A stretch of DNA of 64,000 nt from an uncultured Methanomassiliicoccus sp. (GTDB taxonomy: Archaea; Thermoplasmatota; Thermoplasmata; Methanomassiliicoccales; Methanomassiliicoccaceae): contig CALUEU010000003.1 of the NCBI GenBank assembly GCA_944319735.1, positions 124,001 to 188,000 of the forward strand, in the 5' to 3' direction. Both the position numbers and the translations under genes were made by a program. Below the pieces are notes generated by a model. It searched no databases and was not told where the DNA came from. It saw only the letters and a program-made list of their open reading frames with translations. This document shows, piece by piece, positions 23,810-44,011 of the stretch; position 1 is the first letter of the stretch; every line of letters starts with the position of its first letter.

Positions 23810-23923
23810 CCCGACTTAGCTCAGTCTGGCTAGAGCGGCTGACTGTAGTGGGTTCCCGGTACATCCGGTTCCTCAGCCGCTGATATCAGCAGGTCCCCGG
23901 TTCAAATCCGGGAGTCGGGACCA
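23810..23923 (+). tRNA. tRNA-Tyr (GTA) with 36-base intron
   Basis: Acceptor CCCGACT/AGTCGGG, D arm starting TAGCTCAGTCTGGCTAGAGC, anticodon stem GCTGA/TCAGC with anticodon GTA (23845-23847), T arm CCCGG-TTCAAAT-CCGGG, discriminator A and encoded CCA. The loop is interrupted after position 37 by an intron 23849-23884, the canonical archaeal 37/38 site, removed by the splicing endonuclease. TATA box at 23777-23784. Confidence 0.95.
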
Positions 23924-27194: not shown

Positions 27195-30100
27195 TCAATC
27201 ATTATTTAGTTTTAGAATTTTTTCAAGCTCATCATATGTAATAATAGAAAATTCTATCTCCTTGTATCTGCACACAAAAAGCTTATTTGTAACCATGTAT
27301 GAAACAACAACATACTCTGAATCGTTGATGCCAAACGACATAAGAATCTTATTTTTGTTTTTCATCATGTAGTTGATTCTTCTTTGAAATTTTTCATCAT
27401 CTTTATGCTGGTAAAAGAAACTTTTTTGTTGCATTTGATCTTCATAGATGGATCCAACTTTATGTAGCACTTTACTCTCGATTATCCAAACTTCATGCCT
27501 TGTTTTACTTATTGCAATAATATCATAATCTCCGAGCTCTGCTGGATAATCTTCTTGAGGGAAACGAGATTTAAGATCTACTTCTGTAACAACAGTATCA
27601 AAGCCTACTGTGCGGAATATCTGTGCAATATCTTGCACCATGCAATCCTCATATCGTTTTTTCCATTGATCTAAGACAGATTTCAACTTACTTAGGCCTA
27701 TTTCATACGGTAAATACCAATTTAACATCCCATTCTTCCATGATTCTAATGCACCATTTATAGTGACTGGAGAAAAGATACATCTATTGTCATGTATGAT
27801 AATCGGTTTCATGTCAAATCTATTATCTCTTTTTTCACGTTCCCAAATAGGCAAAACATCGTGCTGTTTTCCATTAACTCTTTTGAGTGCAGTGGTATCA
27901 AGTGTAAGAAAATCAATAATGGTCATAACCATATTGTAATCAGGCATGTCTTTAGAATATTCCTTATATTTCTGAATCAATTCTGATTTTTCAATCTCAA
28001 ATACATTTGGATATGTTCTGAGACTGGTAGCATCTTGTATAATGTCTGATTGCATATATTCCATAAACAATATTAATTGCCTTATGTTGATACCTGTATC
28101 TTGATTAAACGCCTCAAATGCACTTTTTAAAAATTCTACATCTATGGCATCATCTTTGATTGAATATTCCTTTATATCATATTTTCTTAAGATCACCGAA
28201 TCATACATTTTACCTGCAACTTCATTTAAAATAGTGTCTACTTTGTACTCAGAACTTATGGACACTGTTATCTCGGAATCTGAATAATAACATATGTCTG
28301 CACAATCCTGAAGAACGACAAGCCAATCTGCAAAAGCAAGAATAAACTCAAAATCTTCCATTGAACATTTTTTTGGTTCTTTTTGATGTTCAATCGCTAA
28401 ATTACTCTCTAGTAAGTATCCCGCCATCCTAATATTTCTACGACATTCTTCTCTGATTTTTATAGTCTCTTTTTCAAAGTTGTCTTTAACTTCATCACTT
28501 AATTCTGATAGTGCAGAGTATTTTTTAATACAGAGTGTAATCTCATGTCGTTGTATTGAATAATACTCTAATATCTCATTATGCAAATCATATTTATCAT
28601 AATATGATATATATTTTTCAAATATTTCAACCATATATTTTTGCATTTTCCTAATTATTGCGGTAGCTTCTTTTCCATGATACTCTCCAGGTTTAATGCC
28701 CGATTCAAAACATATCTTTGCAATTTTTTTCCTAACTCTGGTAAAACTAATTGCCGATATCTGAGTAGGAATACTTTCATCTGAAAAATAGTATTTCTGA
28801 TCAATCTGAAACACGCCCACTGTTTTCTTAAGTGAAGAACGTTCTGCTAATTTTTTTTCTAGATGACTATATTTTTCCGGTGAATACTTGCATAGTGGTT
28901 GTAGCAGTTCCAGGAAGTATGTATGCTCTGCTTGTCGATCCGTTCCATTTTGAAATATGGTTGTGATTACTAGGGGATCAAGACTATATCTAATTATTAT
29001 GCGATCTGGTTCAACATGTTCATCACCAAATACAATTTCTCGAGACGAGTCATGTAAGAATCGATACGAATGATTTATAGCATATTGCCAAGGCATGAAT
29101 AATATCTGGAGTGTTTTTCCAGTTAATATGTCGATATCACATACCAAATCAGCATATTGTGCAAATAAGCGTTGGTTTAATTCATCGATAATTCCAGTAA
29201 GGCTCTCTCCATATTGTATAAAATCTTCTTTTGTAAAGAAATCTACATTGTGTGACATGAACACGTAAGTGTCACGGCCTAATGCTTTAATTTCACCTCC
29301 AAAGCCGTGGCAGCCTTTGTGAATTATTCTGATATTTTTTTGAAGATTAACTTCCGCAACCCAATTTAAAGGATCATTAAGTATGCCAGCATTATTTCTA
29401 GGAAACTCATGTAGCATATTTTTAAAATATGAATAAACATATTCTTCTGTTTCATTACGATCAATGATTATTTTATCATACTCAATCGCACCAGATGGAA
29501 TAACGTGATTCAAATCTTTCCAAGCAAAAAAGTATCCACTCAATCCGCTCCTAGATGAAACTAACACTTGGTTAGTTATACTGTATTGTATAAACTCAAC
29601 AACTTCATTTAAGTTATTTGCGAAACCTATTAAATAGATAGCATCAATTGCACTGCACTCAAACTCTTTTATAGATGATTCACGAAACTTCCAGTTAGCA
29701 GTAATATCTGTAAACGGATCGATAATCATGTAGATTATATTGCAATCGCAATCAAAATCTATCAAGTATACGCCATTAATGTCTTCCCTATATACTCCTT
29801 CAGCTAGGCGTAGACCTTTTGTATGATTTAAGTCTGCAATCTGTTGGATGGTTGCACGTATCTGATCATCATCATACGAGTTCTTATCAATAACTATTAA
29901 GATGCAATTTTCATTACAACGTGTTGCAAATAATAAACCCTTTACTATAACTTCTTTAGATTTACGATCTATGATTGCAGGTTTTATTAATGCTCTATTG
30001 GGCGTATTTGGAGACATATTAAACGAATTTTCAACCAATGATAAGATTGTTTGAGTGATATGCTCTTTTTTCTCTTTTGGTGTTGCATTTAATAGAAGAA

Positions 30101-30920
30101 TCTTGTAACAATCAACTAATATTGATTCATTGAATAGTGGATACATCTTTGACTCTTTTTTAATGAAATGTCTCATTTCAATGGGGCTTAATTGTTGCCA
30201 CATAATCTGAGATGTTGCTGTAGCTTGTTTTTGGAATATTGGGTTATTGAACATTCTAGTTATTGTATTCCAATATTCTTCCGGTGGTATCTCAAACGTG
30301 ATACTGTGATCTGAATTGGGGATGTTAGTTTCTTTTGTGAGATTAATAATCGTATTTACGTATTCTAAAATTGTGCTTAATTCTTCATTGCGATTACAAA
30401 TTGATGCTAATGTTTGCATATGGCGAATTGCACCATACACTTGTTGGTAACCAGTTCCAGTGATAGTTGAATATGTTTTCCCAAAATGGTTGATAAACAC
30501 TTCACCATAATCATCCATAATGTACTCTTCTTGGTTAGTGATAGTTAGAAACTTGGAGACTTCATAATAAAACATTTCAAATTCAGAATAACTTATTATG
30601 TGCTGTGTTCCAGAATTACCACACTCTGATAAAGCCATATTCAATGACAACCTTTGAGTTAATGCAGATCGATTTTTTCTCCATGAATTGAGACAAAATA
30701 TGGCAGTTGTCAAATCACTAAACTCATATTTGGATATGACATCAAGGAGACTATCTGCAATTGGTCGAATATTATCAAATGCCGAATGAAATTCTTTCAA
30801 ATGCTCAGTGTCAATTTTTATCTGAACATCGGTGTTTTTGTCTAAACAACACCCCTCACATTTTTTATCATGGTCTGGATCATTTTTTTCTAGTTTCATA
30901 CGTCTCATCTTTCTTTTCAT
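27195..30920 (-). CDS. Orphan 1241-residue protein with C-terminal PD-(D/E)xK nuclease signature
   Basis: A very large protein without recognisable family over most of its length. The N-terminus has a CEGCC cysteine cluster (about residues 21-25). Near the C-terminus AELGDYDIIAIS ... EVWIIESK reads as a PD-(D/E)xK active site: D1133, then E1148-x-K1150 on the following strand, with E1128 upstream. This fold is shared by restriction enzymes, Mrr and NERD nucleases. No membrane helices and no Walker motifs are obvious. The gene is clearly more AT-rich than its neighbours and uses many AT-ending codons, suggesting transfer. It has no partner genes in an operon. A defence or mobile-element nuclease is plausible but unproven. 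Confidence 0.7.
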   Translation of the reverse strand: MKRKMRRMKLEKNDPDHDKKCEGCCLDKNTDVQIKIDTEHLKEFHSAFDNIRPIADSLLDVISKYEFSDLTTAIFCLNSWRKNRSALTQRLSLNMALSECGNSGTQHIISYSEFEMFYYEVSKFLTITNQEEYIMDDYGEVFINHFGKTYSTITGTGYQQVYGAIRHMQTLASICNRNEELSTILEYVNTIINLTKETNIPNSDHSITFEIPPEEYWNTITRMFNNPIFQKQATATSQIMWQQLSPIEMRHFIKKESKMYPLFNESILVDCYKILLLNATPKEKKEHITQTILSLVENSFNMSPNTPNRALIKPAIIDRKSKEVIVKGLLFATRCNENCILIVIDKNSYDDDQIRATIQQIADLNHTKGLRLAEGVYREDINGVYLIDFDCDCNIIYMIIDPFTDITANWKFRESSIKEFECSAIDAIYLIGFANNLNEVVEFIQYSITNQVLVSSRSGLSGYFFAWKDLNHVIPSGAIEYDKIIIDRNETEEYVYSYFKNMLHEFPRNNAGILNDPLNWVAEVNLQKNIRIIHKGCHGFGGEIKALGRDTYVFMSHNVDFFTKEDFIQYGESLTGIIDELNQRLFAQYADLVCDIDILTGKTLQILFMPWQYAINHSYRFLHDSSREIVFGDEHVEPDRIIIRYSLDPLVITTIFQNGTDRQAEHTYFLELLQPLCKYSPEKYSHLEKKLAERSSLKKTVGVFQIDQKYYFSDESIPTQISAISFTRVRKKIAKICFESGIKPGEYHGKEATAIIRKMQKYMVEIFEKYISYYDKYDLHNEILEYYSIQRHEITLCIKKYSALSELSDEVKDNFEKETIKIREECRRNIRMAGYLLESNLAIEHQKEPKKCSMEDFEFILAFADWLVVLQDCADICYYSDSEITVSISSEYKVDTILNEVAGKMYDSVILRKYDIKEYSIKDDAIDVEFLKSAFEAFNQDTGINIRQLILFMEYMQSDIIQDATSLRTYPNVFEIEKSELIQKYKEYSKDMPDYNMVMTIIDFLTLDTTALKRVNGKQHDVLPIWEREKRDNRFDMKPIIIHDNRCIFSPVTINGALESWKNGMLNWYLPYEIGLSKLKSVLDQWKKRYEDCMVQDIAQIFRTVGFDTVVTEVDLKSRFPQEDYPAELGDYDIIAISKTRHEVWIIESKVLHKVGSIYEDQMQQKSFFYQHKDDEKFQRRINYMMKNKNKILMSFGINDSEYVVVSYMVTNKLFVCRYKEIEFSIITYDELEKILKLNND

Positions 30921-31345: not shown

Positions 31346-31861
31346 TTAAAATTTTAAATCTGTTTTTTTATTAATGAAATCCTTAGTCTTTCTCATAATT
31401 TCAATCAGTATGTCAAGCTCTTCTTGTGATAGGTTTGAGAAGAGACTGTCTATAGATGATTCAAACTCATGTTTTGATTTTATAACCAGTTTCCTTCCCT
31501 CATCTGTTAAAAAAACATTGTATTTTTTGCTGTTCTTGCTTTTGCGGTCGTCAGCCACAATTCCTTTTTCTCTGAGTTCCGAGATTATTCTGGTAGTGTT
31601 TGATTTATCAGTACCGGTCTGTTCAGTCAGCTCTTTCATGGTTGCTTTTCCTTTCTGGAACAGGGTAACAAGATATGGCAGATAACAGGCCTTCAAATTA
31701 TACTGATTAAGAATCTCAGCAGATCTCTGTGTAATGTCTTTGGATATTGCATGCACGTATGACGGGAGAAACATCTTCCATTCCGGCATCTCTTCATCGG
31801 GCAATATCATCACCTTCGGGCTGTATCTCAGGAAGGAAACCAGGGCTTGCGCCCTGATCAA
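31346..31861 (-). CDS. MarR-family transcriptional regulator
   Basis: A MarR regulator of up to 171 residues. The winged HTH is clear: ACYLPYLVTLFQKGKATMKELTEQTGTDKSNTTRIISELREKGIV followed by the wing DDRKSKNSKKYNVFLTDEGRKL; helices at both ends form the dimer interface. The longest frame starts at TTG 31861; ATG 31810 (MILPDEEMPEW) is a good alternative. It is cotranscribed behind the MFS exporter gene, 26 bases apart, and two TGTTGAG-NN-CTCAACA palindromes upstream of that gene are its likely operators. Ligand probably a toxic organic compound. Confidence 0.88.
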   Translation of the reverse strand: MIRAQALVSFLRYSPKVMILPDEEMPEWKMFLPSYVHAISKDITQRSAEILNQYNLKACYLPYLVTLFQKGKATMKELTEQTGTDKSNTTRIISELREKGIVADDRKSKNSKKYNVFLTDEGRKLVIKSKHEFESSIDSLFSNLSQEELDILIEIMRKTKDFINKKTDLKF

Positions 31862-31887
31862 TTGAGAGGTAAACTCCCTGTAACGGT

Positions 31888-33450
31888 TTATTGTTTTTCT
31901 TTTTCGATATTCTCAGGACTTCCATCCTCCTTGATACTGACGATCGGCTGGGTTTTCATAAACACTGCAATCAATGCCACCAGTACTATGAGAATTGCAG
32001 CAACCAGAAATGTAAGAGCAATTGCATCCCCGTAATCGCTTATGATCGTCTGCACATAACCAGGTCCGAACTGTGTCAGAATTTCTCCGATATGATTGAG
32101 AATTGAAGTATTCATCGGGAGACCTGATTCCGAGAGCCCGGGAATTGCATTCAGCTTCTGCACAAATACTGTTGAAATTATTGTAGCGAACAGCCCGGTA
32201 GCTATTGTGCCCCCTATATTCCTGAATAAGTTGATTGTGGAGGTTGCCATCCCCATTTCAGTTTTTGAAGAGTTGTTCTGCACCAGTATCATGATTACAG
32301 ACATTACACAGCCGAATCCGAAGCCGCAGATGAACAGCGAAAGCAGGAGAAACCACAAGTCGCTGCCGTTGTGCAGAAAGCTCATCATAACCAGGCCGAT
32401 GAAGGAAAACACCGGACCGGCTACAAGCCATGGTCTGTAGCCTGTGCGGTTCAGCAGAGCACCGCTTGAGATGGAAGTAATCATCATGCCAGCTACAAGC
32501 GCCAACGTAACGTAGCCTGATTCAGTAGGAGTATAACCCATAATCATTTGCAGGAAGACGGTGATGAAAGTCAACACACCCATCATCGTCATTCCGAAGA
32601 CGAAGATCATCACACTGCTGTTGATCATCACTTTATTTTTGAAGATCTGAGGATTCATCACCGGATCCTTCACCCTGTGTTCTATCTTCACAAATATGAA
32701 TAACAGAACAGCTGCAACCGCTACCATGATCAGCGTCTCGACACTGATCCATGCAAAGTCATTCCCTGCCCAGGTGAAGAGAAGCAGTATATCAGCAATG
32801 AATACGCTCAGAACGCCGATTCCAGTGTAGTCGATGTACGGCTTTTCCTGAACATTGATTGAAGGGAACTTTGCAGCTGTGAGTGCGATCATCACTATGC
32901 CGATGGGTACGTTGATAAAGAAGCACCAGTGCCAGCCGACGCTGTCAGTTATAAGCCCGCCCAGCAGCGGTCCGATTGCAGAACCGATGGCAAAAATCGC
33001 CCCCAGCATTCCCTGGACCTTTCCTCTTTTATCGGGAGGGTATAAATCTGCCACTGTCGCAGTGGCTACCGGGATTAACGTTCCTCCGCCCAGACCCTGC
33101 AGAGCCCGGAAGGCAATGAGTTCAACCATGCTTGTAGACAATCCTGCCAGTACAGAGCCGGCTAAGAAAAGTACAATTCCTACTAGTAGGAGAGGCTTCC
33201 TTCCATAGATATCAGATAATTTTCCTGAGATGGGGATAAGGATAGTCTCGCAGAGCATGTATGCAGTTATGGCCCATGAGTAAAGATCCATCCCGTTAAG
33301 ATCCTGGGCAATGGTCTTCAGCGCAGTTGATACAATGGTGCCGTCCAAACAGGCGACGATCATTCCCAGCGCCAAGCCTATCATGATCATATTGCGGGTT
33401 TTAGGGTCGATATTCGAGCTGTCGACTGATGTTCTCACATTTTGAGTCAT
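31888..33450 (-). CDS. MFS multidrug exporter, DHA2 (EmrB/QacA) family
   Basis: A 520-residue transporter with 14 predicted membrane helices. Family motifs: LDGTIVSTALKTIAQDL in helix 1 (motif D1), GKLSDIYGRKPLLLVG (motif A) and GAIFAIGSAIGPLLGGLI (motif C, antiporter). It would export lipophilic drugs using the ion gradient. ATG 33450 lies about 20 bases after the predicted transcription start, inside a promoter covered by two palindromic operators; MarR follows in the same transcript, a classic autoregulated efflux unit. Possibly of bacterial origin. Confidence 0.92.
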   Translation of the reverse strand: MTQNVRTSVDSSNIDPKTRNMIMIGLALGMIVACLDGTIVSTALKTIAQDLNGMDLYSWAITAYMLCETILIPISGKLSDIYGRKPLLLVGIVLFLAGSVLAGLSTSMVELIAFRALQGLGGGTLIPVATATVADLYPPDKRGKVQGMLGAIFAIGSAIGPLLGGLITDSVGWHWCFFINVPIGIVMIALTAAKFPSINVQEKPYIDYTGIGVLSVFIADILLLFTWAGNDFAWISVETLIMVAVAAVLLFIFVKIEHRVKDPVMNPQIFKNKVMINSSVMIFVFGMTMMGVLTFITVFLQMIMGYTPTESGYVTLALVAGMMITSISSGALLNRTGYRPWLVAGPVFSFIGLVMMSFLHNGSDLWFLLLSLFICGFGFGCVMSVIMILVQNNSSKTEMGMATSTINLFRNIGGTIATGLFATIISTVFVQKLNAIPGLSESGLPMNTSILNHIGEILTQFGPGYVQTIISDYGDAIALTFLVAAILIVLVALIAVFMKTQPIVSIKEDGSPENIEKEKQ

Positions 33451-33468
33451 TCAGCATCTCCAACAATA

Positions 33469-33518
33469 TGTTGAGGTCTCAACAAATCTTAGTATATAAA
33501 TATGTTGAGAACTCAACA
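33469..33518. promoter_or_regulatory. Divergent promoter with two MarR-type operators around one TATA box
   Basis: TGTTGAGGTCTCAACA (33469-33484) and TGTTGAGAACTCAACA (33503-33518) share perfect seven-base arms. Between them lies GTATATAAATA (33492-33502), a TATA box readable in both directions. A start about 26 bases away falls within the first operator on the minus strand (MFS-MarR) and just beyond the second on the plus strand (ligase and following block). MarR binding would block both transcripts. Binding by this MarR is inference. Confidence 0.75.
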
Positions 33519-33622
33519 AACACTATTTGGTTAAACGCCTTATTTTCCTTACAGGCAGCAAATATAAAGTAAACACAGACTTATTGCAGCTCCAGAATTC
33601 TGATGGATATAGCGTGGTGTCT

Positions 33623-34972
33623 ATGATAGAAATCTCAATGGAAGAGGCTGTCCAGCTGTGCAGGGAAGGAGAAAAACTTCTGCCGGAAGAGAAAAAAGCC
33701 ATAGTTAATGAAAGGCTGAAGATGCTGGTATCCTACGCTAAGAAGCACTCGGCTTACTTCAGAAAGCTGTATTCTGACATTGATGAAAATAACTTCTCAC
33801 TGGAGGACCTTCCGCCAGTTACAAAATCAGAACTGATGAAATGCTACGAAGACTGGGTTACCGATCCAGACATTACTTATGACGGCGTCATCGAATATGT
33901 TAACACCCCGATCGAGACACGCAGTTCGTATCTTGGAAAATATTCTGCGCTGATGACCTCTGGGACATCTGGAAATCCGATGCCGATGGTCAGGGACTCT
34001 TACCACAACATCATTCACGGCACCCTCATACAGACCAGGTTTCTTAAGAATGTAGATGAACACATACTTGATCCGAAATACAATAAACTGGCAACTATCA
34101 TCTTTACAGATCCGAGCGTCTCGTCTTATTCCTCATTTTTGAAGGTAAAGGCCTTAAATCCTGATTATAGCGATAACATGCTGGCCATTTCTCTGCAGGA
34201 AGGGAGCGAGAGCATAATCAAGAAACTCAATGACTTTCAGCCAGATCTGCTCACCGCCTATCCTTCAACCATCGGACCCCTGATCAGTGCGGCAGAGGAG
34301 GGAAGGTTGTCAATCCACCTCAAGGCCATTGGTTTTTCTGCAGAAGTCTTGTCTCCTGAAACACGCTGCAGAGCCGAGGCGGCTTTTAACTGTCCAGTTT
34401 TGAATAATTACTGCAGCACAGAGGGCGGAGAGGCAGCCATGGCCTGCAAACTGGGAAATCTGCACATAAATGACGACTGGGTCATAATCGAGCCGATAGA
34501 CAAAGATGGTAATCCGGTCAAAGACGGAGAATGGTCTGAAGGCATATATGTCACAGACCTCACAAACTATGTGCAGCCTGTAATCCGCTACTACATGAAT
34601 GACAGCGTAAAGATCACCAGGACATGCGGATGCGGAATGAATCTTCCCATCATGGAAATAAACGGAAGGGTTCTGGAAGAAATCCAGGTTGAAGGGAAGA
34701 GGCTGTCAGGCCTTGTTATTCTGCACAGTCTTCACGAAGTGAAAGATCTTTACACATACCAGGTGGCTCATGTCTCTGAAGGATGCTTTGAACTGAGGGC
34801 GGAGTTTGCCAATGGCGCAGATAAAGAAAAAATACTCAATGATTTCAGCAGAGAACTTAATGAGTACCTACTCAACAACGGATGCAGGGAAGTTACCGTT
34901 AAGTTAAGCTCAGAACCACCCAGGCACAACGCGAAAGGCGGTAAAATCAAGGAGTTTGTGAAGGGGTTTTAA
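33623..34972 (+). CDS. PaaK/LuxE-type adenylate-forming acyl ligase
   Basis: A 449-residue member of the phenylacetate-CoA ligase (PaaK) group. ATP-binding P-loop TSGTSGNPMPM, adenylate motif NYCSTEGGE, IRYYMNDSVKI and a CGCG-containing hinge before INGR are intact; the C-terminal small domain ends with GGKIKEF containing the catalytic-type lysine. It should activate a carboxylic acid as acyl adenylate. The frame is open to TTG 33527; ATG 33623 (MIEISMEEAVQL) starts the recognisable domain. First gene of the block that continues with the Rsb genes, and it shares the MarR-type promoter. Confidence 0.82.
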   Translation: MIEISMEEAVQLCREGEKLLPEEKKAIVNERLKMLVSYAKKHSAYFRKLYSDIDENNFSLEDLPPVTKSELMKCYEDWVTDPDITYDGVIEYVNTPIETRSSYLGKYSALMTSGTSGNPMPMVRDSYHNIIHGTLIQTRFLKNVDEHILDPKYNKLATIIFTDPSVSSYSSFLKVKALNPDYSDNMLAISLQEGSESIIKKLNDFQPDLLTAYPSTIGPLISAAEEGRLSIHLKAIGFSAEVLSPETRCRAEAAFNCPVLNNYCSTEGGEAAMACKLGNLHINDDWVIIEPIDKDGNPVKDGEWSEGIYVTDLTNYVQPVIRYYMNDSVKITRTCGCGMNLPIMEINGRVLEEIQVEGKRLSGLVILHSLHEVKDLYTYQVAHVSEGCFELRAEFANGADKEKILNDFSRELNEYLLNNGCREVTVKLSSEPPRHNAKGGKIKEFVKGF

Positions 34973-35000
34973 CTTTAAATAACAATAAACTGTGATATTC

Positions 35001-36881
35001 ATGGATGCGATTCTGGCCTCTGCTGCATTGGAAGCCTTTTCCATACTGCTGTTCGGCATCTTTTCTCTGCTGATTGTAGATGTAACATTGAAAAGAAAAT
35101 ATTCTGTAGAGAAATCTTTGTCCTTTTTTATCATATTGTTTATTGTTTCGTATATATTACTAATACCGCTGAGGCTGTATGCAAATCAATTTCCTGCAGA
35201 TCTGGAACTTAATCTCTTCAGCCGGCAAATCAACATGACCAGCATAGTCAACATGCTGGCAGAATTATCAGCGATTTTAATCACTACTTTCTTCGTGTAC
35301 CTGATGGTTGTGAAGTGTTACGAAGGCAAAAACTCTGCTAAGATCTTCGTGGCGTCTTTTGCAGTGCTCATCTCCATGATCATCTGTACATTTTTCAGCG
35401 ACTATGCAATGCTTGCCTACAATAATCTGACAGGTGAGACAGATGCATTAATGCAAAAGATAATTTATGCAATTCTGCAGGCCGTTCTCTTAATAATCAT
35501 CACTCTGGCATATAATTTCTTAATTAAAGACAAAGTCAGAAAGCTGATCTCCGACACAAACGGGGAAATGTCCCATTTCATCGTTGTTCCGATTCTCAGC
35601 TACATTACTTTCATCGTGGTCTACTGTGCCTGGTACATCGGCGACTATACGATCAAAGAGACTATGAATATTCAGTATCTCGTCACGTCTCTTGCTCTGC
35701 CGATCATCTATATCTTGATATTCAGGCTCATTTTTACCGAGATATCCGCTACAGCAGAGTCAATGAAGACTGAGACAGAGCTCAACGCCGCGAAGCTGAT
35801 CCAGACTTCAATTCTTCCGCAGTCGCAGTTCAACGGCAAGAAGGGCATAAGCATTTCATCCCTGATGGTTCCTGCAAAAGAGGTCGGAGGAGACTTCTAT
35901 GACTTCTTCGAGCTGGACTCAGGAAAGGTAGCTGTCATGATCGCCGACGTGTCTGGAAAAGGCATACCGGCGGCTCTGTTCATGATGCATGCGCACTCGA
36001 TCATCAAACACAACCTCATTCTTACAAACTCTCCCGCAGAGGCATTATCAAAATCAAACCTCCAGCTGCTGGAAAACAATGATGCTTGCATGTTTGTGAC
36101 AGTCTTCATCGGCATTTTGGACTTAAAGTCAGGAACATTCACCTATGCCAACGCCGGCCACAACCCGCCCCTTATAAAAAACGAATCTTTAGAATATCTG
36201 AGTGTTAAAAAGCAGCCCGTGCTGGGCATAGTCCCTACGACCTACGAAAATTCTGAAGTAACTTTATCTGACGGCGCCGTTATCTTACTGTATACTGACG
36301 GTGTAACCGAGGCCATGAATGATGCCGGGGAGGAATACGGCACCGAAAGACTGCTGAATCTGCTGAAAACCTCCAGCATGATGGACATGAAAGAGCTGGT
36401 CGAGCTGGTCAATTCCGAAGTAAACTCCTTCTCCAGACAAGCTCATGATGACATTACGATGGTGGCGCTGGAATACACAGGATCATCTACAAAAATAACC
36501 GTTCCTGCAGAAAAAGAGTCACTTGTACCTGTGCAGAAACTCATCTCCTCCGCATTAAGAACAGATGATGAAAAATTACGCTCATTGATATTGATGTCTG
36601 TAGAGGAGATATTCATCAACATTGTTAACTATGCTTATCCTGACTCAAAAGGTGCAATCTGTATAATGTTTGATGCAGCTGACGAGCTCAAGATACAGTT
36701 TAAAGACCGCGGCATTCCCTTCAATCCTTTGGAATCGGATGATCCAGATCCGACTCTGGCTCTTGAAGAGCGGTCCGAAGGGGGATACGGGATCTATCTG
36801 GTTAAAAAGTTCATGGATTCTGTCTCTTACTCGAACGAAGGCGGCGAGAACATATTAATTCTAAAGAAAAATCTACACTAA
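35001..36881 (+). CDS. Membrane SpoIIE/RsbU phosphatase with C-terminal RsbW-like ATPase domain
   Basis: A 626-residue sensor-type protein. About six or seven membrane helices fill residues 1-245 (no known ligand domain). A linker helix leads to a PP2C-type SpoIIE phosphatase domain (about 260-490): ILPQSQFNGKKG, AKEVGGDFYDFFEL, MIADVSGKGIPAALFMM, LYTDGVTEAMN and AHDDITMVAL, all metal aspartates present. The C-terminus (about 500-626) is a GHKL/HATPase of the anti-sigma kinase type (SVEEIFINIVNYAYPD, KDRGIPFNP, GGYGIYLVKKFMD). One protein thus carries opposed phosphatase and kinase domains for a STAS partner, encoded next. ATG 35001 follows a TATA-like CTTTAAATA at leaderless spacing. Confidence 0.9.
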   Translation: MDAILASAALEAFSILLFGIFSLLIVDVTLKRKYSVEKSLSFFIILFIVSYILLIPLRLYANQFPADLELNLFSRQINMTSIVNMLAELSAILITTFFVYLMVVKCYEGKNSAKIFVASFAVLISMIICTFFSDYAMLAYNNLTGETDALMQKIIYAILQAVLLIIITLAYNFLIKDKVRKLISDTNGEMSHFIVVPILSYITFIVVYCAWYIGDYTIKETMNIQYLVTSLALPIIYILIFRLIFTEISATAESMKTETELNAAKLIQTSILPQSQFNGKKGISISSLMVPAKEVGGDFYDFFELDSGKVAVMIADVSGKGIPAALFMMHAHSIIKHNLILTNSPAEALSKSNLQLLENNDACMFVTVFIGILDLKSGTFTYANAGHNPPLIKNESLEYLSVKKQPVLGIVPTTYENSEVTLSDGAVILLYTDGVTEAMNDAGEEYGTERLLNLLKTSSMMDMKELVELVNSEVNSFSRQAHDDITMVALEYTGSSTKITVPAEKESLVPVQKLISSALRTDDEKLRSLILMSVEEIFINIVNYAYPDSKGAICIMFDAADELKIQFKDRGIPFNPLESDDPDPTLALEERSEGGYGIYLVKKFMDSVSYSNEGGENILILKKNLH

Positions 36882-36915
36882 GTTCATATTGTTCTAAAGT
36901 TATCTTGGCCTGCTT

Positions 36916-37233
36916 ATGAATATCGCCAAGTTATCCAAAGGAGACAGCCTGCTGGTTTCTGTAGGTGGCAGATTGGATACCATTACCCATCTGGATTTTG
37001 AAAAAGAGTTAGATGCAATCCTGTCCAGCGGAGACATAGCCGGTGTTACCAATATGGTCCTTGACTTTGCTGCTCTTGAGTATATATCCAGTGCAGGCCT
37101 CAGATCCCTGCTGAAGCTTCAGAAGGATCTAAACAGCAGAAATATTGCTCTGATAATCTCAAATCCGAACGATCTTGTCATCGATGTGCTGAGCATCACA
37201 GGCATCGACCAGCTGATTAAGGTGGATACATAA
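36916..37233 (+). CDS. STAS-domain protein (RsbV/SpoIIAA-type antagonist)
   Basis: A 105-residue single STAS domain. The conserved segment VLDFAALEYISSAGLRSLLKLQ places Ser58 where RsbV and SpoIIAA carry the serine phosphorylated by RsbW and dephosphorylated by RsbU. In bacteria the unphosphorylated form binds the anti-sigma kinase. Archaea lack sigma factors, so here the released or bound partner must be something else, perhaps one of the HATPase fusion proteins encoded in the block. The next gene starts two bases after its stop. Confidence 0.92.
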   Translation: MNIAKLSKGDSLLVSVGGRLDTITHLDFEKELDAILSSGDIAGVTNMVLDFAALEYISSAGLRSLLKLQKDLNSRNIALIISNPNDLVIDVLSITGIDQLIKVDT

Positions 37234-37234
37234 T

Positions 37235-38659
37235 ATGGAATTCATAAATATGCGTGTTTTGTCTGATCCGCATTCCATTCCTGTGGCCCAGGCTGCGGTA
37301 GCCAGTGTGGCAGAACTGTGCGGCATATCCAGGAAAGACATCAGCAAACTAGAGATCGCACTTGAAGAAGCGATGATCAACATCATAACTTTTGGATTTC
37401 CTGATCAAAAAGACGCATATTTTAACGTCTCTGTAGACATTTCCGGCATGGATTTTGAGATAATCATCCATGACAAAGGAAAACCCTATGATTTTGAAAA
37501 TGTCGGCGATGACTTGTCATCTTCGGCGGGAATCAAGCTCATGAGGGGTCTGACAGACGGCATCATTTTCAAAAATCTTGGTGGAAAAGGCAGGGAGCAG
37601 CATTTAATCAAGCATCTGACCGCCCTGCCTTCCTATACCAAAAGCCCCCAGGAAGAAGAAGTCTGCGAACTTGAGAATCTGGAATTCGACATTCATCCTC
37701 TGCGCAAGAATGAAGCCATTGAAATGTCGCAGTGTGTGTATGATGAGTTCGGATACACGTATCCTTCGGAACTGGTGTATTATCCGGAGCAGTATTATGA
37801 AGCATGCCAGAGGCATGATTACTTTTCTTTGGTCGCTACAGCCCCAAACGGCGAGATCGCCGGACACCTGGCGCTGATATTCTCTCCCCATTTTCCTGGA
37901 ATTGCAGAAATGGGCATCGGAGTGGTGAAAAAGAAATTCAGAAACTATTCCCTGATGAGCAAACTTACCAACGAGATCATTAAAATTGCAGAGAACGACT
38001 TCAAGCTCAATGCGCTGACTGCGCAGCCTGTCGTTTATCATCCATATACGCAGAAGATCTGCAACAAAACAAACTTCACCGCCTGCGGCTTTGTCCTGCA
38101 TTATCTCAACTATGATCTGGTAACCACATATGACGACGTGGGGGACAGAGGCAATGTGGCTGTGGCTTTTCGTTTATTCAATGATGAATTAAAAGAAATT
38201 TATGTTCCAGACGAGATAAGGGAACTGGTCTCATTCATCATTTCGCTTTCAAACCTGAAACGAAATATCTCCGACGGTTCTCTTCCGCCGGAAGGCTCTT
38301 TGAGTGAAGTCATCACCGATATCAATCAAAGAATGAAAATCGGAAAGGTATTCATTGAACATGCAGGCAGTGACATCCATTCCGCATTAAAAAATTCTCT
38401 TTTAGCAACTAAACGGGAAAAGTGTGCAGTTGTGGAGCTGTTCATAAACATGTCTGACGCGTGTGCTCCCTATGCATATGAGAAGGCAAAAGAGTTTGAC
38501 TACTTCTGCACAGGGATTCTTCCCTGCACTCAAAACGGAGATTATCTGACTATGCAGTGTCTCCTGAGCGACATAGTTGATTACGACTCTCTCCACACAA
38601 TCGAACCGTTTACGACGTTAATCAGTCATGTACGCAAATTAGACCCTAACGAAGGTTGA
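37235..38659 (+). CDS. RsbW-like ATPase domain fused to GNAT acetyltransferase-like domain
   Basis: A 474-residue fusion. Residues 1-135 are an RsbW-type GHKL domain: SKLEIALEEAMINIITFGFPDQ (N box), IIIHDKGKPYDFE (G1) and GIKLMRGLTDGI (G2). Residues about 145-330 resemble a GNAT fold (FDIHPLRKNEAIEMSQCVYDEFGYTYPSE ... GHLALIFSP ... EMGIGVVKKKFRNYSLMSKLTNEII), and the last 140 residues are an unassigned alpha/beta domain. It could bind the STAS protein and couple that to acyl or acetyl transfer. Located between the STAS and LuxE-like genes, with gaps of two and four bases. Confidence 0.85.
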   Translation: MEFINMRVLSDPHSIPVAQAAVASVAELCGISRKDISKLEIALEEAMINIITFGFPDQKDAYFNVSVDISGMDFEIIIHDKGKPYDFENVGDDLSSSAGIKLMRGLTDGIIFKNLGGKGREQHLIKHLTALPSYTKSPQEEEVCELENLEFDIHPLRKNEAIEMSQCVYDEFGYTYPSELVYYPEQYYEACQRHDYFSLVATAPNGEIAGHLALIFSPHFPGIAEMGIGVVKKKFRNYSLMSKLTNEIIKIAENDFKLNALTAQPVVYHPYTQKICNKTNFTACGFVLHYLNYDLVTTYDDVGDRGNVAVAFRLFNDELKEIYVPDEIRELVSFIISLSNLKRNISDGSLPPEGSLSEVITDINQRMKIGKVFIEHAGSDIHSALKNSLLATKREKCAVVELFINMSDACAPYAYEKAKEFDYFCTGILPCTQNGDYLTMQCLLSDIVDYDSLHTIEPFTTLISHVRKLDPNEG

Positions 38660-38663
38660 TAAC

Positions 38664-39830
38664 ATGGACTATTGTATTAGAAATCTCACTGATCCAGATG
38701 TTTTACCGCCTGGTAAGAATCTTTCAGCTCTCAGTGATTTGTGGGCATCTCCAGATCCTTATGAGTATGATGATGAACTGTTTGTCAAAGCTGTTAAGCA
38801 GTGCCTTTCCAGGCATATTGAGAAGAATGATTTCTACCGAGACTGGATGTCAAGAAATAAGTTTTCAGCTGATGATCTGAACAACATTGACGACATTGCC
38901 AGGATTCCATTTCTCCATGCTAATTTTTACAAGACCCACGTCATAAAAACTGCACGGGATGAGGACATAGCCATCACCCTGACTTCATCTGGTACCACAG
39001 GACAAAAGAGCCAGATGTTCTTTGACAATTGGACGATCTTCGCTTCTGACAAGTCGGCAGACATGGAGGCCGGCAGACTGGGAATGATTACTGACGAGCC
39101 TACAAACTTTCTGCTTTATTCCTACGAACCGGCAGAAGGGGTGAATGTGGGAACCCTGAGAACAAGGCAGATGATGCGCAGATATGCGAAAGAGAATGAG
39201 CTGGTGTATGCCCTGAAGTACACTGGAAAAGGCCATGAGTTCGATCTCTTCGGCTGCATTGACGCCCTGCTCAGGTTTGAGCAGAAGGGTCTGCCCGTAA
39301 GACTTCTGGGATTCCCGGCATTTCTTTACTTTACCTTGGAAAAAATGAAAGATATGGGCTACCCGCCGCTGAAGCTCAACCCAAAGTCACTGGTCATGAT
39401 GGGAGGAGGATGGAAAGGCTTTGTCGATAAGCAGCTGAGCCCCCAGGAGTTCCGCGCCTACATCAAAGAGAGGCTGGGTCTGGACGAATCCCGCTGCCAT
39501 GAGAGCTACGGAGCTGTAGAGCACGGGGTTGCATACATGGACTGCGACAGACACCACTTTCACGTCCCGACTTACAGCCGTGTTCTGATTAGGGATGTCA
39601 GGACTCTGGAGGTTCTCCCCTACGGCAAACCCGGGTTTTTGAATGTTATCAGTCCGATAAATACCGGCGTGCCGGTAGTCAGCCTCCTGCTGGGTGATCT
39701 GGCCGTTCTGCATGAGGGAGGCAGCTGCGGATGCGGGATAGACGCCCCCTGGTTTGAGATTCTGGGAAGGGCAGGAACGACCAAAAACCGCAGCTGCGCC
39801 ATTGCTGCTGCAGAGCTCTTAAGGAAGTGA
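38664..39830 (+). CDS. LuxE-family acyl-protein synthetase
   Basis: A 388-residue LuxE family member. Visible: ITLTSSGTTGQKSQMFFDNW (ATP P-loop), GFPAFLYFTLEKMKDMG, LVMMGGGWKGF, ESYGAVEHGVAYMDC and CGCGIDAPWFEILGRAG near the end. LuxE activates fatty acids as acyl-AMP and passes the acyl group to its own cysteine and then to LuxC. A LuxC homologue is encoded next, one base after this stop, so the two probably work together in reducing an acyl group to an aldehyde. No luciferase genes are present, so light emission is not implied. Confidence 0.88.
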   Translation: MDYCIRNLTDPDVLPPGKNLSALSDLWASPDPYEYDDELFVKAVKQCLSRHIEKNDFYRDWMSRNKFSADDLNNIDDIARIPFLHANFYKTHVIKTARDEDIAITLTSSGTTGQKSQMFFDNWTIFASDKSADMEAGRLGMITDEPTNFLLYSYEPAEGVNVGTLRTRQMMRRYAKENELVYALKYTGKGHEFDLFGCIDALLRFEQKGLPVRLLGFPAFLYFTLEKMKDMGYPPLKLNPKSLVMMGGGWKGFVDKQLSPQEFRAYIKERLGLDESRCHESYGAVEHGVAYMDCDRHHFHVPTYSRVLIRDVRTLEVLPYGKPGFLNVISPINTGVPVVSLLLGDLAVLHEGGSCGCGIDAPWFEILGRAGTTKNRSCAIAAAELLRK

Positions 39831-39831
39831 T

Positions 39832-42285
39832 ATGATGAAGCACATATGGAGAGGTTCACTGATTGAAGATAAGGACTTATTAAACAGTCTTCGTAAACTT
39901 CCTGAGGAGATCAACGAGACGCTTCAGGAATCTTTGAAAACTGAAGACGTTCTCAATGCCTGCGAGAGTCTGGCAGCAGTGATGCTGGAGTATAAAGATG
40001 AACGCATGAAGTCTGCTCTGGCTGAAGACGGATGTGAAAATCCTAAAGAGTTCTTAACTGAGCTGGCTCACAACATTTCCAGAGAATCGCTGACAACCAA
40101 GCTTTATGCTGAACTGGGTACAAACAGGCCTTTTGAAATCAGGAGAATCAATTATAAAACCCAGAACTTCGAGGCCTGGAGTCCAATGGGCGTTCTTGTA
40201 CACATCACCGCCGGCAATTCCATAATCGTGGCGCCGATGGCTGCAGTGGAAGGACTTCTGACCGGAAACATCAACATCATCAAGGTGGCGAGCAACATAG
40301 GCTCCTTTGCCGCCTGGTTCTTTTCTGAGCTGAGCATGTATGCCAACATTTCAAAGTTCCTTTACATGCTCAGGGTGTCTTCCAAGCACAAGGAGATTAT
40401 CTCGGAGATAATCTCCAACGCTGACTGTGTGAGCGTATGGGGAGGAGAAGATGCAGTTTCAGCCATCAGGGAGATGACTCCCAAGGGAATTCCGATCGTC
40501 ACCTGGGGCCACAGAATAAGCTTTGCATACATCACGCCTGATGCAATGGAGTCTGCAGTAAGCGGATTGGTGCAGAGCATCTGCCGCAATGAACAGCAGT
40601 CCTGTTCCAGCCCGCAGTGCGTTCTTATCGATACAGATAACAAAACTGATGTTGACCGCTTTGCCAAGATGCTCAGTGAGGCACTGGATTCCTGCGGTAT
40701 ACCTCAGAAAATGCCAGATCTTGCGCAGAGTGCAGAGATTACCACAGTTACTGAGCTTCACAAATCTGACATATATTTCAACGGCGGAGACATAATCGAG
40801 GCGGAAGACCGCACATACAGGCTGTTAATCTGCTATACACCTAAATTCATGCCCTCTCCGCTTTTCCGTACAGTCTGGATTTCACCGATGCCTCATAATG
40901 AGGTAATAAAGCGCCTCAGGGGCATGAGGCAGTATCTGCAGACCGCCGGTCTCGCCTGCACGCTCGATGAGCTTGCTATGCTTACAGACATCATGTACAG
41001 GGCAGGAGTTACCCGTGTGACTCCGGTTGGGTCCATGAGTGCAAGCTATACCGGAGAGCCGCATGACGGTGTGTTTGCTTTACCGAGATTCCTGAAAAGA
41101 GTCTCTATGCGCACCGAGCTGCCTTTGACGGGAATTCTGAACTTTTCAGAGCTGAGGGAACCGGAGGAGATGCGCTTCAGAGGAAAAATTCAGGGCAAGG
41201 CAGATTATCCGCCTGTGCCGGAAAACGGCACCAGGGTGCTCATGAAAAGCGGCGGAACTACTGGGGATCCAGTATTCTGCAGCTACACCCAGAATGACTT
41301 TGACAGATACATAATCGAACCCTCCATTGAGGCGCTGCTGTCCCGCGGTCTTGATCCTGAAACGGATGTTCTTGCCGATCTCCTCAAATGCGGAAATCTC
41401 TACGGCGGAATGAACTGCTTTGTTTCCATCTTTGATAAAATGAATGCACCGCATCTGAGCATAAGCGGTTTGGATGATTTTGGCATGGTCGCAGACTTCA
41501 TGATTAAAGGCAGAGCCACTGCCATTCTCGGAGCTCCGAGCTATATACTCAGGCTGTTTGAGGAGAATGCCGAGAAGTTTAAAAAATATGGGAGAATTAA
41601 AAAGATATTCTTTGCCGGAGAGCACATGTCTGATGGACAGAAGGAATATCTAAAATCTTTTGGGATTGAGATCATCGCACCTGTGCTTTACGGTGCAAAC
41701 GAAACCGGCACCATGGGCATATCATGCAGCCACTGTCCTCCGGGAGTATATCACGTCTGTTCCGATATCCAGCATCTCGAGATTCTCAAGATGGATGAAG
41801 ACAAGCCTGTGGAAAAAGATGAAGTCGGCAGACTCATTTTTACAGGATACAGGAGAGAAAACGGTCATACTGAAAGATATGAAATCGGAGACACCGGACG
41901 CTGGGTAGAAGGCCAGTGCCAATGCGGCAGAAAGCAGCCGAGGTTTGAGCTGCTGGGAAGATATGGAGACATCATCCGCATGGGAGGGACTTTCTTTAAT
42001 TATCAGAAAATAGGAAAGATCCTCTCTGACGAGTTAAATTACAGCGGCAGGCTGCAGCTCATCCTGGAAAGAAAAGATCTCAATGAGAAGATGATCTTCT
42101 GCATGGAAAACATATCCATATCTTCTGAAGAGCTCACAAAAGTCCTGTTAAACAGCGGATATGACTCATTTACGAAGACTGTTCCCACCGGACTGGTGGA
42201 AATCGAAGCCAGAATACTTTCTCCAGATGAATTTGTTATCAACAATGTAAGCATCAAGCTCAAGTCGGTGATAGACAGGCGCTGA
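39832..42285 (+). CDS. LuxC-type acyl reductase fused to PaaK-type adenylating domain
   Basis: An 817-residue fusion. The N-terminal part (to about 440) is a LuxC/acyl-CoA reductase: FEAWSPMGVLVHITAGNSIIVAPMAAVEGLLTG-type cofactor region, VWGGEDAVSAIREMTPKGI, and NEQQSCSSPQCVLID with the probable acyl-binding cysteine. The C-terminal part (about 460-817) is a PaaK-like ligase: MKSGGTTGDPVFC (P-loop), YGANETGTMGI, GYRRENGHTERYEIGDTG, CQCGRKQPRFELLGRYGD and GGTFFNYQKIG. It could activate and reduce the same acid. Start ATG 39832 or 39835. I know LuxC and PaaK as separate proteins; the fusion is unusual. Confidence 0.87.
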   Translation: MMKHIWRGSLIEDKDLLNSLRKLPEEINETLQESLKTEDVLNACESLAAVMLEYKDERMKSALAEDGCENPKEFLTELAHNISRESLTTKLYAELGTNRPFEIRRINYKTQNFEAWSPMGVLVHITAGNSIIVAPMAAVEGLLTGNINIIKVASNIGSFAAWFFSELSMYANISKFLYMLRVSSKHKEIISEIISNADCVSVWGGEDAVSAIREMTPKGIPIVTWGHRISFAYITPDAMESAVSGLVQSICRNEQQSCSSPQCVLIDTDNKTDVDRFAKMLSEALDSCGIPQKMPDLAQSAEITTVTELHKSDIYFNGGDIIEAEDRTYRLLICYTPKFMPSPLFRTVWISPMPHNEVIKRLRGMRQYLQTAGLACTLDELAMLTDIMYRAGVTRVTPVGSMSASYTGEPHDGVFALPRFLKRVSMRTELPLTGILNFSELREPEEMRFRGKIQGKADYPPVPENGTRVLMKSGGTTGDPVFCSYTQNDFDRYIIEPSIEALLSRGLDPETDVLADLLKCGNLYGGMNCFVSIFDKMNAPHLSISGLDDFGMVADFMIKGRATAILGAPSYILRLFEENAEKFKKYGRIKKIFFAGEHMSDGQKEYLKSFGIEIIAPVLYGANETGTMGISCSHCPPGVYHVCSDIQHLEILKMDEDKPVEKDEVGRLIFTGYRRENGHTERYEIGDTGRWVEGQCQCGRKQPRFELLGRYGDIIRMGGTFFNYQKIGKILSDELNYSGRLQLILERKDLNEKMIFCMENISISSEELTKVLLNSGYDSFTKTVPTGLVEIEARILSPDEFVINNVSIKLKSVIDRR

Positions 42286-42289
42286 TAAA

Positions 42290-44011
42290 ATGTTAGAACG
42301 CAACCCCTATCTGGTCAACAAAGCATTCCGCACTTATCTGGTAGCTACAGTGTTAGCCTCAATGGCTTTGTCGCTGGGGGTTGTGATTGACGGCGTAATA
42401 GTCGGAAATCTTCTTGGTCCTGAGTCTCTATCCGCCATCAATCTGACATCACCGCTCATACAGCTGCTGAGCGCCATCACCATCCTGATCAACGTGGGAG
42501 GGGCGACACTGGCTGCGATCTTCATAGGCCGCAGCAAAACTGAAGAAGCTTCAAAGATTTTTACAACATCAGTAATAATTAATTTTATTGTAGGAATCAT
42601 TATAACAATTATCGGGACAGTATTCATTGATGAAATTGTCTCAGTGCTCTGTTCAGATGCTTCTCTAGCCCCCTTAGTAAAAGATTATGCATCAGTAGTA
42701 TTGTTGAGCAGCCTTCTGTATATGCTGCTGCCGGGAATCTGTGTTTTTGTAAGGACAGACAGCAACCCGAGGCTAGCCACTGCAGCTCTGGTCATTGCAA
42801 ACATTGTCAATTTGTGTCTAGATGTGGTCTTCATAGAGTACATGAATCTGCAGGTGGGAAGTTCTGCCCTTGCCACTGCTTTAGGGTATCTGGTGGGAGT
42901 CTGCATTCTTCTTCTCCATGTCAGGAAAAAGGAAAGAGTCTTCAAATTCAAAACTGCAGATTTCAAATTCACAGCATCGATATTTGCAATGGGGGCCCCG
43001 GTGGCTCTGGCGTCTGCTCTCATGACAGTCCGCCTTTTTGGAATGAACTCAATCGTTCTTCAGTACTTCGGTGCAGATGGTGTAAGCGTCATGGCCGTTT
43101 GTCTGAACCTGATGATGATTGCTTCAATGTTTATCGGCGGAACTGCCCAGACTATGCAGCCTATCGGGGGAGTTCTGCATGGTTCTGAAGATTACAAAGG
43201 TATGAATCTGGTCATCAAGGCTGCTACTAAGGTTCTCATACTCTGTCTGGCGGTTTTAGTCTCACTCATCTTCCTGTTTCCGGGTGCATTCGCCTCGTTC
43301 TTCGGCTTAACTGATCCGCAACTTGTGAGCTTTGCAGAGCCTGCATTGAGGATATTCGCCCTATGTCTGCCCATATACGGCATAAATTACATGCTGATGA
43401 TTATCTACCAGATACAGGGGCACAAGAAGTTAGCTTCAGCAGTATCTTCCGCACAGGCACTGATGGTGGTAGTAGTCGCTCTTATTCTGGTTCCCATGGA
43501 TAACGATCTTATCTGGGCTTCATTCGCATTTGGAGAACTGATAGTATTTGCTGGAACTGTGGTAGCCGCCTACATCGTTCATAAGAAGCGCGGCCTTACA
43601 GCTCTTACTCTGCAGAAGACTGCTCCAGAAGGTGCTCTTCTGTTTGATGTTTCCATGAAAGGAGACGGAAGCGATATGAAATCAATGATGGATGAGCTCC
43701 ACTCATACCTGGTTTCAAGCGGTCTTCCGCCTTCCATGACAAACCGCATAGAGCTGTGCTGTGAAGAGCTGACACTGAATGTCATTGAACATGGATTAAA
43801 CGAGTCAAAAAATCACTATTTAGATATTAATATCAGAGAAAATGAAGACAGCATTGTGATCACAATAAAAGACGATGGACCGATATTTGATCCGATCAAG
43901 TATGACGGGGATGGAAAAGGTCTTCTTCTCGTCAAAGGGATCTGTTCATCAATCAACTATTCCCGTGCAATGAATCAGAATCTGGTTACTGTTAAAATTC
44001 TGCGTTCCTGA
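42290..44011 (+). CDS. MATE-family exporter fused to C-terminal RsbW-like ATPase domain
   Basis: A 573-residue fusion. Residues 1-430 are a 12-helix MATE transporter (GVVIDGVIVGNLLGPESLSAINL, GGATLAAIFIGR, TDSNPRLATAALVIANIVN), normally an Na+- or H+-driven exporter. Residues about 445-573 are a GHKL anti-sigma-kinase domain: MTNRIELCCEELTLNVIEHGLN (N box), ITIKDDGPIFDP (G1) and GKGLLLVKGIC (G2). The domain could bind the STAS protein 5 kb upstream and gate transport. Last gene of the block, four bases after the LuxC fusion stop. Confidence 0.9.
   Translation: MLERNPYLVNKAFRTYLVATVLASMALSLGVVIDGVIVGNLLGPESLSAINLTSPLIQLLSAITILINVGGATLAAIFIGRSKTEEASKIFTTSVIINFIVGIIITIIGTVFIDEIVSVLCSDASLAPLVKDYASVVLLSSLLYMLLPGICVFVRTDSNPRLATAALVIANIVNLCLDVVFIEYMNLQVGSSALATALGYLVGVCILLLHVRKKERVFKFKTADFKFTASIFAMGAPVALASALMTVRLFGMNSIVLQYFGADGVSVMAVCLNLMMIASMFIGGTAQTMQPIGGVLHGSEDYKGMNLVIKAATKVLILCLAVLVSLIFLFPGAFASFFGLTDPQLVSFAEPALRIFALCLPIYGINYMLMIIYQIQGHKKLASAVSSAQALMVVVVALILVPMDNDLIWASFAFGELIVFAGTVVAAYIVHKKRGLTALTLQKTAPEGALLFDVSMKGDGSDMKSMMDELHSYLVSSGLPPSMTNRIELCCEELTLNVIEHGLNESKNHYLDINIRENEDSIVITIKDDGPIFDPIKYDGDGKGLLLVKGICSSINYSRAMNQNLVTVKILRS

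Follow-up and report, generated by a model that had tools for sequence, protein, structure and literature searches.

Gene content of the locus

A 64,000-nt stretch of DNA from an uncultured Methanomassiliicoccus sp. (the window, in which all coordinates below are counted) contains a row of seven genes that joins an Rsb-type partner switch (SpoIIE phosphatase, STAS protein and HATPase domains) to LuxE, LuxC and PaaK acyl enzymes, a GNAT-fold acyltransferase and a MATE exporter. The genes were read from the window and their proteins predicted, as follows:

33623–34972, + strand: PaaK-like adenylating ligase (open reading frame opens at TTG 33527; ATG 33623 matches homolog length)
34992–36881, + strand: seven transmembrane segments (7TM), PP2C/SpoIIE phosphatase (~aa 310–495) and canonical HATPase with full ATP lid (~aa 504–626)
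36916–37233, + strand: STAS switch protein, 105 aa, with likely phosphosite Ser59 (in Ser58-Ser59-Ala-Gly)
37235–38659, + strand: HATPase (aa 1–130; degenerate G2, short lid) fused to GNAT-fold acyltransferase (~aa 150–474)
38664–39830, + strand: LuxE-type acyl-protein synthetase (Cys378 at 39795–39797)
39832–42285, + strand: LuxC acyl reductase (~aa 35–422; Cys258 at 40603–40605) fused to a PaaK-type adenylating domain (~aa 434–817)
42290–44011, + strand: MATE exporter with C-terminal HATPase (~aa 463–568), ATP lid shortened

Seven genes on a single strand, with these domains, had been named in a preliminary description of this DNA, and the open reading frames and Pfam/NCBIfam matches agree with it. 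The gaps between the genes are, in order, 19, 34, 1, 4, 1 and 4 nt, leaving only 1–4 nt between neighbors from STAS to MATE. The start proposed there, 33469, is the position of a palindrome and not of a gene; the PaaK gene begins at the TTG at 33527 or at the ATG at 33623, of which the latter is the more likely start.

The SpoIIE protein matches SpoIIE (PF07228, E 8.5e-48) and HATPase_c_2 (E 9e-19), and a simple hydropathy scan predicts the seven transmembrane segments of its N-terminus. The STAS protein matches PF01740 (E 2e-15) and TIGR00377, and the next protein HATPase_c_2 (E 1e-13) and GNAT (E 3.5e-4). The remaining Pfam matches are to LuxE (E 7e-35), to LuxC (E 4e-79) together with AMP-binding (E 2e-7) in the LuxC-PaaK fusion, and to MatE (E 2e-34) together with HATPase_c_2 (E 7e-13). 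For the first PaaK the Pfam AMP-binding match is weak (E 5.5e-4), and NCBIfam models related to DVU_1553/F390 synthetase match at E 3e-24.

Conservation within Methanomassiliicoccales

Among 100 relatives surveyed for the LuxC-PaaK fusion, five encode it at full length (53–57% identity), and all five keep the order STAS, HATPase-GNAT, LuxE, LuxC-PaaK, MATE-HATPase. These five genomes belong to the same order as the window, Methanomassiliicoccales, and to one family (f2), the window itself belonging to another (f1); no other sampled f1 member has the cassette. SpoIIE adjoins the block in four of the five: G075, G037 and G063 have it on the upstream side, and G041 has it downstream, on the opposite strand. 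The fifth, G065, has no local SpoIIE, and its STAS is fused to HATPase-GNAT in a single 590-aa protein. The first PaaK had been counted as part of the unit, a role we reject: it adjoins none of the five other loci, and those genomes hold no ortholog (best ~27–38%, over partial length).

A strong MATE-HATPase match (E < ~1e-49) was found in 8 of 147 Methanomassiliicoccales genomes, the set also used for the SpoIIE and STAS counts below: the six cassette carriers and two genomes without the LuxC cassette, G109 and G100. In all eight, MATE-HATPase adjoins STAS or shares a block with it, and in seven SpoIIE is in the locus. At L184 (G109, contig C90) and on contig C65 of G100, the genes for STAS, MATE-HATPase and SpoIIE-HATPase are consecutive, preceded in G109 by a GH3-family ligase. 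In these two loci the same exporter-switch module would serve a second client. Conserved synteny, which had been proposed as the check for a functional unit, is thus present: six archaeal genomes share the block, and bacteria have related loci with the genes in other orders.

A closed set of switch parts

Outside the locus, with its one SpoIIE, three HATPase_c_2 and one STAS, the host genome (99.55% complete) has no further SpoIIE, HATPase_c_2 or free STAS; the second STAS of the genome is the tail of a SulP sulfate permease. No match to sigma-70 region 2 (Sigma70_r2) was found in that genome. Because the parts list is closed and sigma-70 is missing from it, the output is best sought among the HATPase-fused proteins, and the switch probably acts on the GNAT enzyme and the MATE exporter themselves rather than on transcription, as the preliminary description had supposed.

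The phosphorylatable STAS residue is more likely Ser59 than Ser58, the residue singled out before: position 59 is Ser in 27 of 27 aligned STAS proteins, and position 58 is Ala in four bacterial ones. The three HATPases differ in their nucleotide sites. That of the window SpoIIE protein has the N-box Glu and Asn (ExxxN), DxG, GGxG and a full ATP lid, motifs that recur with small departures in relatives wherever the domain is present. MATE-fused HATPases keep ExxxN and a GxGL-like motif, with a lid shorter by ~12–14 residues and so mostly absent. Among GNAT-fused HATPases, the N-box Asn has given way to Gln in G037, to Gly in G063 and G075 and to Ser in G065; those of the window and G041 lack the first G2 glycines and part of the lid. 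Bacterial ones are mostly intact. The SpoIIE-fused domain is therefore most likely the kinase. Since their sites are degenerate or the lid is shortened, the archaeal GNAT-fused domains look to be STAS-binding receivers instead of kinases, and the MATE-fused domains are probably receivers too. The idea that every HATPase phosphorylates STAS is not supported, given the degenerate nucleotide sites of the GNAT-fused domains in archaea.

A structural model of HATPase-GNAT (mean pLDDT 85.8) has a GHKL ATPase followed by apparently two GNAT-like halves. In Foldseek searches, the first part matched RsbW of the RsbV/RsbW complex (6m37, TM 0.82) and also SpoIIAB, and the second matched GNAT acetyltransferases.

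Enzymes and chemistry

In the LuxC/LuxE family, the acylated residues are a C-terminal Cys in LuxE and, in LuxC, the Cys of QQAC. In the window, Cys378 of LuxE and Cys258 of LuxC align with these residues in PDB 7xc6 (chains 7xc6_E and 7xc6_A, respectively); Cys258 is invariant in our alignment (A1), and LuxE has the adenylation motif TSSGTTGQK. LuxE and LuxC together imply ATP-dependent activation of an acid and its reduction to an aldehyde, and conservation of both active cysteines backs the earlier suggestion of an aldehyde-type product. The pairing of PaaK with GNAT implies that an amine or alcohol would receive a second activated acyl group. In one economical scheme, an amino acid would be N-acylated and then reduced, yielding an N-acyl amino aldehyde.

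LuxE and LuxC of the lux fatty-acid reductase (7xc6) are homologous to those of the locus, and the two catalytic cysteines align; here, in contrast, LuxC is fused to a PaaK domain, GNAT and an exporter are added, and the locus has no luciferase. Bioluminescence was rejected as a function on the Pfam/NCBIfam matches of the seven proteins, the rest of the genome not having been searched for luciferase. Anti-phage defense was likewise set aside, as PADLOC gave no match.

Bacterial relatives and probable ancestry

As a single-sequence query, the window LuxC-PaaK matched nothing in genome contigs or viral contigs. A search with an alignment as query gave 440 relatives, and we retained the 80 best. 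Loci in Streptomyces, Massilia, Bacteriovorax and others encode GNAT, LuxE, LuxC-PaaK and PaaK, often with an exporter of the major facilitator superfamily (MFS; MFS_1 or MFS_3), and no HATPase. The core enzymes are adjacent and homologous along their length between the archaeal and bacterial cassettes, the archaeal loci lacking a homolog of the third, free PaaK. As a cassette, these core enzymes are widespread in bacteria. The cassette appears undescribed: we found no paper describing a LuxE/LuxC/PaaK/GNAT cassette in the open-access literature, which is weak evidence of absence.

Two observations concern cassettes without a switch. (i) The more distant Thermoplasmata G366 and G369 encode GNAT, LuxE and LuxC-PaaK without any switch. 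(ii) Two conjugative IncF plasmids of Salmonella enterica (L006, L007) carry LuxE, LuxC-PaaK and PaaK, also switchless, with GNAT annotated in L006.

The HATPase-GNAT fusion was found at six archaeal and ten bacterial loci, the latter in Azonexus, Dokdonella, Lysobacterales, Azorhizobium, Aequorivita, Contendobacter, a Syntrophorhabdaceae and a Bacteroidota metagenome-assembled genome. Neighboring genes in Azonexus, Dokdonella, Lysobacterales and Aequorivita encode a SpoIIE phosphatase, a separate HATPase (RsbW) and, if the contig extends far enough, STAS; the three bacterial loci scanned (L063, L082, L117) have a dCache/HAMP sensor on SpoIIE. In the LuxC-PaaK tree, a single clade of 22 rows (SH-aLRT 94, quick method) contains all 16 labeled HATPase-GNAT loci; in its other six rows the contig stops short of GNAT or of the GNAT N-terminus. 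Nested within the clade is an archaeal group of 8 rows with support 100. Because of this single clade and nesting, the fusion probably arose once and the archaeal cassette is most simply seen as a gain from bacteria, in line with the horizontal gain proposed earlier; transfer in the other direction, out of archaea, is conceivable. Inside the archaeal group lie two short contigs binned as Eubacteriales and Bacteroidales (L055, L056), which hold the closest LuxC-PaaK relatives (59–60% identity). These may be true bacterial carriers by recent transfer, or misbinned.

Partner switches elsewhere in the order

SpoIIE was found in 37 and STAS in 41 of the 147 Methanomassiliicoccales genomes, which contradicts the earlier statement that archaea have no partner switching. 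We read 20 SpoIIE/STAS loci of the order. (i) Eight (L173–L176, L178–L180, L182) have a two-module nonribosomal peptide synthetase (NRPS) with a terminal NAD_binding_4 thioester reductase close to SpoIIE-HATPase and STAS; most come from one genus and are not independent events, and the STAS of L174 was seen only in the genome-wide STAS survey. Their predicted products are of dipeptide-aldehyde type, under partner-switch control. (ii) L177 (tested) and L187 (by similar sequence) have a pair of C39-peptidase ABC exporter genes, then STAS and SpoIIE-HATPase, which suggests switch-controlled peptide export. (iii) GH3 ligases occur in two partner-switch loci, L183 and L184. (iv) At L169, L170, L171 and L186, SpoIIE-HATPase-STAS triads lie beside an open reading frame of ~550–600 aa, with a metallo-beta-lactamase fold in L169 and L171.

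A probable switch without sigma factors

On balance, if by no wide measure, we think it probable that this cassette, bacterial in ancestry, is a partner-switching system complete in itself and free of sigma factors, through which the synthesis and export of a small metabolite of acyl-aldehyde type are gated. The gene set, its conservation, the catalytic residues, the fusions and the lack of other partners in the genome are read from sequence; the signal, the direction of the switch and the product are inferred from them. The 7TM-PP2C protein would sense a signal at the membrane and dephosphorylate STAS, and a HATPase, most likely the canonical one on the SpoIIE protein, would re-phosphorylate Ser59 using ATP. 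Unphosphorylated STAS would dock on the HATPase domains of the GNAT acyltransferase and the MATE exporter, altering their activity or co-localizing both at the membrane, so that production and export would be switched jointly and fast. LuxE would activate a carboxylic acid and carry it as a thioester on Cys378, from which it would pass to LuxC (Cys258) and be reduced to an aldehyde, while the PaaK domain and GNAT would activate and attach a second acyl group, for example by N-acylating an amino acid ahead of reduction.

Several points weigh against this scheme. A SpoIIE-fused kinase is not universal, as SpoIIE lacks the HATPase in G037 and is missing from the G065 locus; in these two, STAS would have to be phosphorylated by the MATE-fused HATPase or by another in trans. 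When the natural STAS-HATPase-GNAT fusion was modeled with AlphaFold, the STAS part had pLDDT mostly 30–52 and everywhere <55, too low to show how STAS docks on the HATPase. Archaeal GNATs have RxxSxM in the CoA loop in place of RxxGxG/A; this loss of glycines casts doubt on acyl-CoA use, and their acyl donor may be other than CoA. Finally, the closest known LuxE and LuxC use long-chain acids, which may not be the substrates here.

It is unlikely, in our estimate, that the switch works by an indirect route, affecting transcription or some other cell function by way of an unknown factor, with the HATPase fusions merely tethering enzyme and pump near the membrane-bound SpoIIE. Partner switching does classically govern transcription factors, degenerate HATPases could be pure scaffolds, and similar genes were proposed to regulate expression of the adjacent NRPS in another archaeon (Leahy et al. 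2010, PMC2812497). Yet this host genome has neither sigma-70 nor a HATPase_c_2 outside the locus, HATPases are fused to two different output proteins, and MATE-HATPase is reused with a GH3 enzyme in L184.

The clusters of that other archaeon, Methanobrevibacter ruminantium M1 (mru0066–0071 and mru0513–0516), resemble the present locus in that, in a gut methanogen, Ser phosphatases, an anti-sigma antagonist and a MatE exporter accompany a biosynthetic enzyme; Leahy et al. proposed control at the level of expression (PMC2812497). They differ in having NRPS where we find LuxE/LuxC/PaaK/GNAT, and HATPase fusions are not described in PMC2812497. The present locus extends the Methanobrevibacter pattern to a different enzyme set, and the added fusions argue for direct control.

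Systems in bacteria offer further comparisons. RsbU-RsbV-RsbW and SpoIIE-SpoIIAA-SpoIIAB of Bacillus likewise have a PP2C phosphatase, a STAS antagonist with a conserved Ser and a GHKL HATPase, but here there is no sigma factor, and two of three HATPases, with reduced nucleotide sites, are fused to an acyltransferase and an exporter. STAS output is not limited to sigma release in SiaABCD of Pseudomonas, where SiaC binds and activates the enzyme SiaD (PMC8457831), in SypE-SypA of Vibrio (PMC10120452) or in BtrUVW of Bordetella. In those systems STAS acts on a separate effector, whereas here the biosynthetic enzyme and the pump themselves contain the HATPase domains.

We judge it quite improbable that the genes serve instead to acylate a lipid, glycan or other envelope component, with MATE as a flippase. 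MATE relatives can flip lipid-linked molecules, and LuxE/LuxC pairs occur in flagellar glycosylation islands of Aeromonas (PMC7874193). The unit, however, has no glycosyltransferases or sugar-nucleotide enzymes, its bacterial versions have MFS exporters, and other partner-switch loci of the order serve NRPS and C39 exporters. Coincidental adjacency of a switch and an acyl cassette is scarcely credible despite the shifting position and strand of SpoIIE (downstream and opposite in G041) and the unconserved first PaaK, because switch domains are physically fused to enzyme and exporter (HATPase-GNAT at 16 loci, six of them archaeal and ten bacterial; MATE-HATPase in eight genomes; and the triple STAS-HATPase-GNAT fusion in G065), within a six-fold synteny.

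If the proposed gating of synthesis and export is right, a partner switch whose outputs are the enzyme and pump of its own operon, in an organism without sigma factors, would allow a clean test of switching without transcription. It would also suggest that animal-gut methanogens and several culturable bacteria share a family of small-molecule cassettes gated by such switches; the products of this family, if reactive aldehydes, could affect neighbors or host. More tentatively, and with somewhat less than even confidence, we suggest that sigma-free phospho-partner-switching is a general control in gut methanogenic archaea, acting post-translationally through HATPase receivers in enzymes and exporters of specialized-metabolite cassettes, with aldehyde-forming enzymes (LuxE/LuxC, reductase-terminated NRPS) as recurrent clients.

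Possible promoters and other features of the window

The remaining features near the gene row are:

33469–33484: perfect 16-bp palindrome TGTTGAGGTCTCAACA, copy 1, also upstream of PaaK
33503–33518: perfect 16-bp palindrome TGTTGAGAACTCAACA, copy 2, role inferred
34973–34982, + strand: TATA-like CTTTAAATAA, 24 nt ahead of ATG 35001

The TATA-like CTTTAAATAA is a possible separate promoter of the SpoIIE operon. A MarR regulator and an MFS exporter (31346–33518) are divergent from the cassette, and the two palindromes flank an archaeal TATA-like box, TATATAAATA, at 33493–33502. The palindrome at 33469–33484 is a probable operator of this divergent MarR/MFS unit.

Further upstream, 27195–30920 is a 1241-aa open reading frame with a C-terminus that looks nuclease-like by eye; the GC content of this stretch is low, at 0.33 compared with 0.43 in the window. 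At 23810–23920, an Rfam tRNA match spans 111 nt; ARAGORN does not report this tRNA, which is possibly intron-containing.

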